28,925 nucleotides of DNA. Source: a virus. The position numbers and the translations under genes are program-made. Location: IMG/VR virus record IMGVR_UViG_3300030117_002102, positions 1 to 28,925 of that record. One strand, given 5' to 3'. This document shows positions 18,800-23,872 of this stretch, piece by piece. The notes beneath the pieces were generated by a model. That model worked only from the letters and a program-made list of their open reading frames with translations, did not search any database and was not told where the DNA came from. Within the stretch, counting starts at the first letter, position 1. Every line of letters begins with the position of its first letter.

Positions 18800-18984
18800 T
18801 AGATTTCCTCGTCTTCTATTGATTTAATGTAATCAATTACACTAGCTTGCCCAGCTCTATACATAATTGATTCAATTGGTTCTTTTGGGTGAATTGGTTC
18901 CCACCCGAAGTTATCGTCTAACTTCTTTATTAACTCTGTTAGTCTTTCGTTGTGAAGTTTAAGAGTATTGAGGGAGATTGACAT
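18799..18984 (-). CDS. Small conserved-looking protein, unknown
   Basis: A 61-residue protein from ATG 18984 (MSISLNTLKLHNERLTELIK), overlapping the 3' end of the reductase beta gene by 26 bases; a TTG at 18996 would add four residues. The first half is a probable amphipathic helix, the second has FGWEPIHPKEPIESIMYRAG and an acidic tail (SIEDEEI). It is coupled by TAATG to the proline-rich gene. It may act with either the reductase or the tail genes. No family recognised. Confidence 0.65.
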   Translation of the reverse strand: MSISLNTLKLHNERLTELIKKLDDNFGWEPIHPKEPIESIMYRAGQASVIDYIKSIEDEEI

Positions 18985-19672
18985 TACTATGTTCAAAAAA
19001 TGCAGGCATTCTTGCTGCCTTCGTCTGAGAAAACTCTGGTGCTCTACCCTCGTACATTAGTCTGTCACTGGCATCTAACCAAAATTTTTTGTCCAAATAT
19101 CTATCTTCATTTCTTTTTAAAGGTTCCATAACCCAGTTGATTGTTGCCTTCCGTAGAAGGTCAAGAGATCTACTTGGTTTAAGTCCTAGCTCTGCACATA
19201 CCAATGAGTTAGCTGCCACATGAACTTGCTCATCTCTTGATATATCTGCGCTAACAGTTCTTAAACCGGCATCACCACAAAATCTAAAGAATGGTAGTAA
19301 TACAAAAAAGATTGCTCTCTCTGCTACTAATGCTTTACAAATTGTGTGGTCTGGGTGAGCTTCCCAAGCTGCACGTAAGCGTAATGCTTCGGCTTCGGCT
19401 TTATCATCTACGCCTAGTGCGTTGGTGATGTATCCAAGTGCAAGATCATGTTTAATCTCGTCTTTGACATTGCTTTCTAAAAGTGCTCTGGCAGTGTCGG
19501 GAACTTTTTTATCAAGTGCGTCTGTAATAAACTCGCCAACTGGTAACTCCATATGGCGTATTGCAAGAGCACGGTAGATGGTTTCTTCTGCACCTTCTTT
19601 AAGTTTTCCTTTAGATGTTTGTACGGGTGTCCAAGTTCTTTTCCGGGACAGTAATTTTATGTAGGGATTCAT
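18959..19672 (-). CDS. nrdB: Ribonucleotide reductase class I beta subunit (divergent)
   Basis: A 237-residue ferritin-like metal subunit that makes the oxidising equivalent for the alpha subunit. Metal-ligand pattern visible from the ATG at 19672: Glu72 and His75 (DEIKH), Glu118 (VAERAIFF), Glu148 and His151 (DEQVH); the first carboxylate is probably Glu42 or Asp51. Where E. coli NrdB has Tyr122 (four residues after the first ligand His) there is Leu79; the nearest Tyr is 81. It is much shorter than E. coli NrdB (376). The C-terminus NLPQYS has a Tyr that could join radical transfer. The start overlaps the alpha stop as ATGA; a TTG start nine bases upstream is less likely. A P-SSP7-type pair once called class II was later reassigned to class I, from memory. 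Confidence 0.85.
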   Translation of the reverse strand: MNPYIKLLSRKRTWTPVQTSKGKLKEGAEETIYRALAIRHMELPVGEFITDALDKKVPDTARALLESNVKDEIKHDLALGYITNALGVDDKAEAEALRLRAAWEAHPDHTICKALVAERAIFFVLLPFFRFCGDAGLRTVSADISRDEQVHVAANSLVCAELGLKPSRSLDLLRKATINWVMEPLKRNEDRYLDKKFWLDASDRLMYEGRAPEFSQTKAARMPAFFEHSNVNLPQYS

Positions 19673-21075
19673 TGCTGACAATCACAACCTATTTCGTCTG
19701 GTTTATTACTCATTATTTCTGCCAAGTAATCGTCAACTGAGGTATCTTCTAGAGCTGCATAAGCATCTGTCTTATCCTGTGTATCTCCCATTACTTGTAG
19801 TGCATAATATAAAGAAGTTTGTGGTGAGTTAAGCCACTCTTCTATAAATGCCTCATCGTAAGTCACCATGTCGCTCCAACTGTTGAAGCTATAGCCATGA
19901 AGCAATCCTGTTCTATTTAGCATGATCATTATCTGATCTGCTACTTGTTTATAACTCTCCCATCCAACTTCAGATGCGATTTCAACGTCGCCATATTTTA
20001 CCTGTTCAACACCAAATTCACCTGAATCCCTGTCAACTACTCGACTAATTGGTGGTGCTATTTCTGGTGTAGAAGTAAAGCCATGAATGTCTCTACTCCT
20101 GTAAGAACAACTGGCGGTAGGGGCTATCGCGAATGCCCGTTCCATGTTGTTCTCACGTGCAATGTTAGCTGCCTCTTGTATGCCGAGGAAGAGCTCACGT
20201 GCAGCTAATCCCGCGTAACCTTCGTAAGGCTCAGCATTATTACATGCTTCAAGTGCCTTACCAAACTCGGCATAGGTAATATTGTTATTGGCTAAGAAGT
20301 TAGCTAAACCAAGCATCCCTAGTCCTACTTGTCTGTCATTCTCTGGCTTTAAGTATTCACCAGACTGTCCAACACCTGTTTTACCATGGAGGCTGCACAG
20401 TTCTTGCATGCCTTCACGGAAAGCTGGTCGGAGGTCGCCGATACGACAGGCACCGAGATTGATATGCTGTAGGAGGCACGTTCCACGTGAGGGCAAATAA
20501 ACTTCCAAGCATACATTCGATCTAATTCTTTTTCCATTATTGTCATGTTTTATTTTTGATAACCAAATGTCTCCTCTTGCAATTCCTCCAAGTATTGCTT
20601 CCTTTGTTTCAGGGTTTGAATTATTCCAGAGTTCTTTGGTGAGGTCAACACATCGTTTGACCCATGGGAGCTCGTGTCTTTCTGTGAACACGAACTCAAG
20701 GATATCGGCGTGATTAATATCAAGATGGAGGACGCAAGCACCGTTCCTAAATGTGCCCCCCCTACGTAGTATTTCATTTAATGTTGAGTAAATTTTTCCG
20801 AATGAGACAGGTCCTGATGCAACGAGTGAATCAGGTCCTTTATTTGTTGTTGTTCCTCTTGGTCTAACGTCCGACAAGTGGACTGCGACTCCTGCTCCAT
20901 ATCTAAGAGCATGCGATACAAATCTCCAGCTCGCTTCGATGCCATCACTTCCTTCCATGCTGTCCTGCACGTTAAAAATTGTGCAGCTTACCGGTAGACG
21001 GTCAGTAGGATTATCAATCCATGCTTGGACTCGACCAGTCCTAGCTATTTTGTTGGGTTCTATTTTCGATTTCAT
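19669..21075 (-). CDS. nrdA: Ribonucleotide reductase class I alpha subunit, N-terminally short
   Basis: A 468-residue catalytic subunit reducing ribonucleotides for phage DNA synthesis from host RNA and nucleotides. Active-site residues: Cys31 (PVSCTIFN) and Cys210 (LGACRI) as the substrate-reducing pair, and Asn187-Val-Cys189-Leu-Glu191 as the N-x-C-x-E radical site. APTASCSYRS around residue 318 is the phosphate-binding loop. Tyr423-Tyr424 (SLYYALQ) matches the tandem Tyr of class I radical transfer, which argues against class II. The C-terminal CDCQQ gives the redox cysteines as CxC rather than the usual wider spacing. The E. coli N-terminal ~190 residues, including the ATP cone, are absent, so overall allosteric control by ATP/dATP is probably lost. 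It overlaps the DUF3310 gene by 35 bases. Confidence 0.93.
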   Translation of the reverse strand: MKSKIEPNKIARTGRVQAWIDNPTDRLPVSCTIFNVQDSMEGSDGIEASWRFVSHALRYGAGVAVHLSDVRPRGTTTNKGPDSLVASGPVSFGKIYSTLNEILRRGGTFRNGACVLHLDINHADILEFVFTERHELPWVKRCVDLTKELWNNSNPETKEAILGGIARGDIWLSKIKHDNNGKRIRSNVCLEVYLPSRGTCLLQHINLGACRIGDLRPAFREGMQELCSLHGKTGVGQSGEYLKPENDRQVGLGMLGLANFLANNNITYAEFGKALEACNNAEPYEGYAGLAARELFLGIQEAANIARENNMERAFAIAPTASCSYRSRDIHGFTSTPEIAPPISRVVDRDSGEFGVEQVKYGDVEIASEVGWESYKQVADQIMIMLNRTGLLHGYSFNSWSDMVTYDEAFIEEWLNSPQTSLYYALQVMGDTQDKTDAYAALEDTSVDDYLAEIMSNKPDEIGCDCQQ

Positions 21076-22127: not shown

Positions 22128-23450
22128 CTAATGTACGTCAGCCCATGTTGGTCCTTCTTTTGCTTCGGCAGCTATGGGACAACGTAATTGGTAATATTCT
22201 CCAGCTAATATTGCTGATGTTTCTAGTTCTCTTTTTACTCCAACTGCGTGATAAGGTCGACATTCATACTGCAATTCGTCGTGAACGAATGCAAGTTGAT
22301 GTGTGTGAAAAGGTTGTAGTCGATCATTTGCAATGACCATCCAACGCTTTGCAACAATACCAGCAGAGCATTGAAGTAAATAATTTAACGCTTTGTGCGG
22401 GCTATCGACCAGCACCCTTCGTCCGTCCAATGCCAAGAGGTAACCGTTAGCAGCCTTATTTGAAACCGCTCCCAATAAGTCGGAGAGTCCTTCGATAGCA
22501 GATACGAAAGCCGTTCGGATCTCGGATCCTTTTTTTCTAGCTTCCTTGGGTTGTAAAGAGTTATCATAACTCGTTCCTATTTTTTCGTTTCCAGCACCAT
22601 AAAGAAAGGCATAAGTCACAGTCTTAACTTGGCGTCTGGTGATTCCTATTTTGTCTGCATTTACTTGATGTATATCATCGTTTAGTAAGATATCGGCGTA
22701 TCGACCTCCGTCATATCTGCCAAGGTAATGTGCAAGCATTCGTAGTTCAATACCACTTAAATCTGCTCCTACCATTGTGTGTCTTGGACTGGCAGTAAAT
22801 AGTTCTCTAAATTCTTTATCAGCAGGTACCTGTGCTAAATTCGGTTTTCTGTGAGCACATCTAAATGTGTTTGTAGAAACTGAACAGTTGTGGTGAATCC
22901 TACCTTTAGTCGTAACAAGCTTGTTCCATGCGTTCACGCCTTCGGATATCATTCCAAGCTTCTTCTTTATCGTCAAACATTTCGCACATGCTAGCGAGAA
23001 GGGAATATTTATCTCCGTCAATGTAATCTCGTCGATAATTGGTTTCCCAGTCGTAGTGGTCTTGCTCAATTTGACATTCAAATGTGTCGTCAGAATCCAT
23101 GCTATATGGTCTCTCGATGTGGGGTTAAACTCCTTTATTCGTTGTATTTCACATCCTGCTCTGTATCCTTGTGTTGCGTTATCTCGTTTAGGAGTGAACA
23201 ACGATCCTGCAACGAAAGGGAATTGTTTTCGAAGTATGTCAATAGTTTCTTCCATCTCTCTTCTGAGATGTGACTCAAGTTGCTGAGCTTTTGATTCATT
23301 AAATGTCCATCCATGAATTTCTTGTTCAGTCAATATTTCTGCGACGCGATGCTCTAATCTACACGCGTCAGATAAGGGCGGAAGTGATCGCATAATTTTG
23401 TAGTTACTTTTACGTCTTGGACCATGTAGTCCTGCATTTCTTGACTCCAC
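22128..23450 (-). CDS. 5: DNA polymerase, polymerase domain (gene 5, 3' part; split)
   Basis: A 440-residue frame holding the family A polymerase domain. Motif A is VGADLSGIELRMLAHYLGRY (catalytic Asp), motif B is RRQVKTVTYAFLYGAG with Tyr at the E. coli 762-equivalent position, and motif C is AFVHDELQYECR (catalytic Asp). The C-terminus KEGPTWADVH mirrors T7 (MGPNWAICH). The 5' end lies in the -1 frame relative to the exonuclease piece and overlaps it by 97 bases. The nominal start is GTG 23450 and an ATG lies at 23393, neither with a clear ribosome binding site. Homology to T7 starts only at DACRLEHRVAEIL, equivalent to T7 VDIEHRAAWLL. Together the two pieces are ~590 residues, a normal cyanophage polymerase length. 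Probably one gene with a frameshift, or a frameshift-translated gene. Confidence 0.93.
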   Translation of the reverse strand: MESRNAGLHGPRRKSNYKIMRSLPPLSDACRLEHRVAEILTEQEIHGWTFNESKAQQLESHLRREMEETIDILRKQFPFVAGSLFTPKRDNATQGYRAGCEIQRIKEFNPTSRDHIAWILTTHLNVKLSKTTTTGKPIIDEITLTEINIPFSLACAKCLTIKKKLGMISEGVNAWNKLVTTKGRIHHNCSVSTNTFRCAHRKPNLAQVPADKEFRELFTASPRHTMVGADLSGIELRMLAHYLGRYDGGRYADILLNDDIHQVNADKIGITRRQVKTVTYAFLYGAGNEKIGTSYDNSLQPKEARKKGSEIRTAFVSAIEGLSDLLGAVSNKAANGYLLALDGRRVLVDSPHKALNYLLQCSAGIVAKRWMVIANDRLQPFHTHQLAFVHDELQYECRPYHAVGVKRELETSAILAGEYYQLRCPIAAEAKEGPTWADVH

Positions 23451-23872
23451 TCTTGCCAGTCACTGGTCTTACCAAAGTCTCCTTTGTATTCGCCTAATCT
23501 GTAACCGTATGCTTCGAGTGAATGTCTTCCATATAGTTGTAGTGGCATATGTCGCCATTGCCTTCGCTTATCTATCTCCATCAAATTTGGATGAAATAGG
23601 CGAGAAAGGACAAGAGTATCAACGCATTCAGCACAAGTAAAAAACTCACTGCTAAGCTTCCGTAGAACAGGAAGGTCATAACCAATAATGTTATGCCCAG
23701 CGAGAGTATCAGCTTCCATAAGTTGATTGATACCATCCCTGATACTGGGCGTCTCGTCATCTTGATCGTTATATACGTAGCTTTTTTCCTCTTTGGTACA
23801 AAAGGTGGAAATGCAATGTATTTTAGAAACGTCATATAATAGTCCGTTTGTTTCTATATCGAATACCAGCAT
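23354..23872 (-). CDS. 5: DNA polymerase, 3'-5' exonuclease domain (gene 5, 5' part; split)
   Basis: A 172-residue frame equal to the proofreading domain of T7 gp5. Catalytic acids: Asp and Glu in VFDIETNGL (residues 4-6), NIIGYDLPVL near residue 61, CVDTLVLSRLFHPNL near residue 83, SLEAYGYRLGEYKGDF near residue 117, and QDYMVQDVKVTTKL near residue 147, matching T7 DYMVQDVVVT. It ends shortly after, at a TAG, where T7 continues into the polymerase domain. The ATG overlaps the stop of a small upstream ORF (TAATG) and has no ribosome binding site of its own. Confidence 0.93.
   Translation of the reverse strand: MLVFDIETNGLLYDVSKIHCISTFCTKEEKSYVYNDQDDETPSIRDGINQLMEADTLAGHNIIGYDLPVLRKLSSEFFTCAECVDTLVLSRLFHPNLMEIDKRRQWRHMPLQLYGRHSLEAYGYRLGEYKGDFGKTSDWQEWSQEMQDYMVQDVKVTTKLCDHFRPYLTRVD

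Follow-up and report, generated by a model that had tools for sequence, protein, structure and literature searches.

The locus considered here poses the question of how a virus makes its replicative DNA polymerase when the exonuclease and polymerase homologies lie in two different reading frames. The stretch of DNA that was analyzed (the window; 28,925 nucleotides) is part of a 45,809-base IMG/VR virus record. It codes for a T7-like cyanopodovirus of the MPP-A (P-SSP7) type, with psbA, a ribonucleotide reductase, and T7-like replication and structural genes, and its best named matches are P-GSP1, P-SSP2, P-SSP3, and P-SSP7. The original prediction placed a DNA polymerase split over two frames here and offered four options (a sequencing error, a natural frameshift, programmed frameshifting, and a true two-part polymerase with independently started subunits) without choosing among them. 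The split is real: an exonuclease open reading frame (ORF) runs from 23872 to 23354 on the minus strand, and the polymerase ORF follows on the same strand in the −1 frame. The last of the four options fits everything that we tested, and the locus very probably encodes a two-subunit T7-type replicative polymerase from overlapping, independently started genes. Its features are the following.

23354 to 23872, minus strand: exonuclease subunit gene, 172 aa, DnaQ/RNase H-like 3'-5' exonuclease
22128 to 23393, minus strand: polymerase subunit gene, 421 aa, family A polymerase domain, with its stop codon at 22130 to 22128
23391 to 23393, minus strand: polymerase start codon ATG, spanning the exonuclease codons TTA and TGC
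23354 to 23356, minus strand: TAG that ends the exonuclease gene, 37 nt past the polymerase ATG
23354 to 23393, minus strand: dual-coding overlap, 40 nt including the stop, with the polymerase in the −1 frame
23394 to 23407, minus strand: A-rich leader before the polymerase start, GTAACTACAAAATT

The exonuclease ORF closes with ...VTTKLCDHFRPYLTRVD*, its frame ending at 23354 as originally described, and its TAG lies within the bases that encode Leu-Glu in the LEHR motif of the polymerase. The DACRLEHR segment at which polymerase homology had been said to resume does lie in the −1 frame. That frame opens after a TGA at 23462 to 23460 and runs to 22128. From these limits a region of about 110 bases had been proposed for any switch between frames; the limits stand, but the conserved ATG at 23393 to 23391 had not been listed, and the real overlap is confined to the 40 nt from 23393 to 23354. 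Read in the exonuclease frame, these nucleotides give the end of that protein's C-terminal helix; read in the −1 frame, they hold polymerase codons 1 to 13.

Both halves are predicted, with confident folds, to be complete T7 gp5-like domains. The exonuclease corresponds to T7 gp5 residues 1 to about 190 and matches Pfam RNase_H_2 as well as T7 gp5 itself (E = 5e-21). Its DEDDy catalytic residues D5, E7, D66, Y149, and D153 are present and invariant in 53 sequences, and its model (pLDDT 93) has T7 gp5 as the best structural match and a C-terminal helix (residues 144 to 169) that passes through the overlap region. The polymerase matches Pfam DNA_pol_A (E = 1e-34) and T7 gp5 (E = 7e-48), contains family A motifs A, B, and C with invariant catalytic residues, and begins with an M1 that is invariant in 50 sequences; its model (pLDDT 92) again has T7 gp5 as the best match (TM 0.87), and the first helix starts at residue 9. 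On T7 gp5, the split maps between residues 183 and 212, in the interdomain linker, which bears out the earlier suggestion that the break lies between domains. The exonuclease half matches PHROG 403 ("DNA polymerase exonuclease subunit") and the polymerase half matches the polymerase-only PHROG 15971, so that separate exonuclease and polymerase genes are a recognized arrangement, with exonuclease-only and polymerase-only families like the halves in the window.

Judging from dN/dS (about 0.07 to 0.22 for the polymerase and 0.10 to 0.32 for the exonuclease, in pairs for which it was computable), both halves are under purifying selection and behave as functional genes. These values bear on a further possibility, natural loss of function, in which the polymerase would be decaying and the phage would rely on another polymerase. 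The MPP-C cyanopodovirus lineage, published without any identifiable DNA polymerase gene (PMC9860041), lends this idea some credit, but dN/dS of about 0.07 to 0.32 across the two halves, the invariance of the catalytic residues, and the constraint on both frames in the overlap (see below) leave it with next to no probability.

Relatives gathered from IMG/VR and from phage records yielded 316 related loci whose exonuclease and polymerase frames differ; the 252 distinct junctions among them come from isolates and from many metagenomes. The offset is −1 in all 316 and +1 in none. The exonuclease stop lies 37 nt from the polymerase start in 62 of 62 close relatives and in 277 of the 316 split loci, the remainder having it 31 to 88 nt after the start. 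ATG or TTG occupies the polymerase start position in essentially every locus (ATG in about 298, TTG in about 17, and one ATT followed by TTG). A further scan of 80 loci, a set partly overlapping the earlier one, found the same arrangement in 78. In a tree of 70 polymerases, all split loci, including the window, form one clade with support of 100/100; outside it lie the fused polymerases of the Syn5, P60, S-CBP2, and SS120-1 type and a pelagiphage. Because the split loci form a single clade, the split is most likely an old, single event: a one-base frame change would have occurred once, in the ancestor of the MPP-A cyanopodoviruses, and would have been kept since.

The same −1 offset in 316 of 316 loci, in one clade that stands beside fused-gene phages, rules out both a sequencing error and a new mutation as the origin of the split. 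The option of a recent natural frameshift is excluded by the recurrence of the junction in a clade with full support, and the comparison of gene 5 across sister phages, which had been proposed as a check, found one and the same offset in all of these split loci and a fused gene in the neighboring clade. An error of sequencing or assembly in an ordinary intact gene 5 might still be entertained because fused gene 5 occurs in sister clades and because the gene-only records of S-CBP1 and S-CBP3 (EF535232 and EF535233) are in frame. Each of these records, however, matches the genome of its phage (KC310802 and KC310803, respectively) except for a single extra base, which in both cases falls at the same gene position, inside the overlap; since the split is conserved in all other data, it is probably the gene-only records, not the genomes, that were edited or are erroneous. 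A likely real sequencing error sits elsewhere in the gene: the genome of S-CBP42 (L105, KC310805), a member of the fused clade, differs from its gene record EF535234 by one base in the exonuclease part, a difference that is probably an error in KC310805. With 252 distinct junctions from many data sets sharing offset, start, and stop, the error option is excluded for practical purposes, and given this conservation an extra base in the reads that would join the frames of the window is very unlikely.

If the polymerase is a gene of its own, its start should leave a mark on the exonuclease codons that it overlies, and the codon evidence says that translation begins at the ATG (rarely TTG) inside the exonuclease gene. 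Across the 252 distinct junctions, which include related sequences and are thus not independent trials, the exonuclease codon that the start overlaps reads CTA in 135, TTA in 103, and CTT in 12; CTA and TTA give the polymerase an ATG, and CTT gives it a TTG. The other leucine codons, CTC, CTG, and TTG, never occur at this position, as opposed to 40% of leucine codons elsewhere in the genes, and the two nonsynonymous variants (ATA and GTA) retain the ATG. The next exonuclease codon, when it specifies cysteine, is TGC in 141 of 141 cases, against a 61% share of TGT among cysteine codons elsewhere. With the bases that follow, TGT at this site would in general turn polymerase codon 2 into a stop. 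The exclusive use of TGC therefore implies reading of the polymerase frame from its second codon, which is needless for a frameshift late in the overlap. In addition, 78 of 215 junctions have a polymerase-frame stop only 6 or 9 nt ahead of the start.

Synonymous diversity places the boundaries of this constraint. In the exonuclease frame it is 0.85 of expectation upstream (0.77 in the lowest upstream stretch of equal size) and 0.53 in the overlap; in the polymerase frame it is 0.32 of expectation in the overlap and about 0.9 right after the exonuclease stop. Dual coding, with its synonymous constraint, thus spans the distance from the polymerase ATG to the exonuclease stop.

The polymerase start has no Shine-Dalgarno match, and neither do most genes of this phage. 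The A-rich leader before the ATG is predicted to be the least paired part of the region. It contains a lysine codon, AAA at window positions 23396 to 23398, that is almost never AAG (synonymous diversity 0.07 of that expected), a bias far beyond codon usage and one for which coding gives no reason. The near-invariant AAA is perhaps an initiation context or signal, although in principle it could belong to a decoding signal.

The latter reading leads to the main competitor, programmed −1 ribosomal frameshifting near AAA-TTA/CTA, by which a fraction of ribosomes would make an exonuclease-polymerase fusion and the rest free exonuclease. An offset that is always −1, the almost invariant AAA before the junction, and the conserved exonuclease stop would all be expected of it, and it is an option named in the P-SSP7 and S-TIP37 records. 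The stretch A-AAA-TTA, which had been pointed out as permitting imperfect slippage, is indeed present at 23399 to 23393 and, as noted then, is not a canonical slippery site. With regard to FRAMESHIFTING, an in-frame X_XXY_YYZ heptamer is absent from 266 of 271 junctions and present in 5. The base preceding AAA varies freely (C, A, T, or G), and a match allowing tandem −1 re-pairing was found in at most 2% of junctions at every position tested, from 8 nt before the polymerase start to the exonuclease stop. RNAalifold, applied to 22 diverse junctions, returned 0 consensus pairs in a search space of structures free of pseudoknots. Frameshifting would also leave the ATG/TTG start kept for no reason.

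A further locus that bears on this is L318 (contig IMGVR_UViG_3300020421_001823), which lies inside the split clade and has another gene between the two halves. On this contig, the features are the following.

157 to 699: exonuclease ORF, intact
687 to 1526: C5-cytosine methyltransferase ORF, 279 aa, complete (Pfam DNA_methylase, E = 9e-50)
1501 to 2775: polymerase ORF, intact, with the usual N-terminus MKPLPPLPDWVALEH kept

The methyltransferase sits exactly at the exonuclease/polymerase joint, and its overlaps with the neighboring ORFs measure about 13 and 26 nt. Some 800 nt separate the halves, the former polymerase start within the exonuclease has been mutated away, and a frameshift cannot join exonuclease and polymerase here. 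L419 and L420, which are closest to L318, show the usual overlap and lack the insertion, which is therefore recent; no further copy of it was found in IMG/VR beyond the same contig. L318 is a single contig, but it is unlikely to be a chimera because none of its three ORFs is interrupted at either of the overlapping joints. With the heptamer, re-pairing, RNA structure, and this locus all against it, frameshifting as the source of the polymerase is improbable and strongly disfavored; formally, it keeps a small probability as a minor contributor at loci where the two genes overlap in the usual way.

The same insertion speaks to a last alternative, an intron, intein, or other splicing unit that would rejoin the halves. 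Insertions of this kind are common in phage polymerase genes, and the idea has been raised for OM43 phages (PMC10580990). Yet the exonuclease and polymerase overlap, with no intervening sequence to remove, and the sole insert seen, that of L318, is a complete methyltransferase ORF; splicing can be given hardly any weight.

We therefore return to two independently started genes and to how they might work. The conserved arrangement, the start-codon and dual-coding constraint, the intact catalytic residues, and the predicted folds have direct support in the data. On this basis, the upstream gene would yield a 172-aa proofreading exonuclease by normal termination, and the downstream gene a 421-aa polymerase that starts, in the −1 frame, at an ATG of its own within the exonuclease gene, 37 nt ahead of the exonuclease stop. 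Initiation would be independent of a Shine-Dalgarno sequence and of the A-rich kind, as on most genes of this phage, and ribosomes translating the exonuclease would probably aid it through coupling. The two polypeptides may then reassemble into one holoenzyme like T7 gp5, a proposal suggested by their homology to gp5 and by the position of the break in the linker between the gp5 domains. Whether the overlap is also a control device, with the internal start setting the ratio of proofreader to polymerase, is more speculative, and we consider it rather unlikely; if it were, some polymerase would work without proofreading or with an exchangeable proofreader.

The arrangement in the window has no difference of substance from the split in two MPP-A isolates, P-SSP7 and S-TIP37, whose ORFs 17A and 17B share its gene order, −1 offset, 40-nt overlap, start, and stop; the window polymerase is 84% identical to that of P-SSP7. 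The nearest relatives by sequence outside the split clade, the polymerases of Syn5, P60, and S-CBP2, share the domain order of the window polymerase and come close to it in total length, with one uninterrupted ORF of about 583 aa as opposed to two ORFs in the window. T7 gp5, to which both domains are homologous with a like predicted fold and conserved exonuclease and polymerase catalytic residues, is likewise a single polypeptide. It also differs in carrying a thioredoxin-binding insertion in the thumb (about T7 residues 262 to 338); polymerase residues 69 and 74 align to T7 gp5 residues 268 and 317, so that most of this insertion is absent from the window polymerase, where it aligns mostly to a gap.

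The P-SSP7 GenBank record states that ORF17A/17B "may be a split variant of DNA polymerase, or a programmed ...," and the S-TIP37 record is annotated likewise. The published P-SSP7 proteomics, in the citation by Sabehi and Lindell 2012 (PMC3350473), left frameshift versus split undecided, and Harrison et al. 2019 (PMC6370689) reported that "a frameshift mutation" blocked scoring of the polymerase residue that determines fidelity. Our literature search, which covered mainly papers outside subscription, found none that decides between the two. The split itself was thus already known from isolates; what appears to be new is the clade-wide evidence that the polymerase is initiated independently, together with the L318 insertion. 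This evidence strongly favors a split over a frameshift and brings the question of mechanism close to settled. The point matters because these are widespread marine phages whose polymerase has been labeled a frameshift or split variant for years, and several phage records list no gene there. Treating the locus as two genes would make the polymerase annotatable and restore it as a marker, and a two-subunit T7-type polymerase with separable proofreading would become directly testable.

The identities of the two halves to the window are decoupled in several relatives: L010, L012, and L018 have exonucleases 67 to 69% and polymerases 90 to 93% identical to those of the window, and the opposite is seen in L043 and L053 (exonuclease 90 to 92%, polymerase 82 to 83%). 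This pattern suggests recombination near the exonuclease/polymerase joint and exchangeable halves, and the exonuclease and polymerase alleles of MPP-A phages seem, from these comparisons, to have been swapped independently.

Elsewhere in the window, a 240-aa ORF of the ribonucleotide reductase (18959 to 21075) matches a class Ia beta-subunit family, whereas the reductase gene is called class II in the P-SSP7 and S-TIP37 records. The class Ia match agrees with the published reannotation of a cyanophage reductase (PMC6370689).
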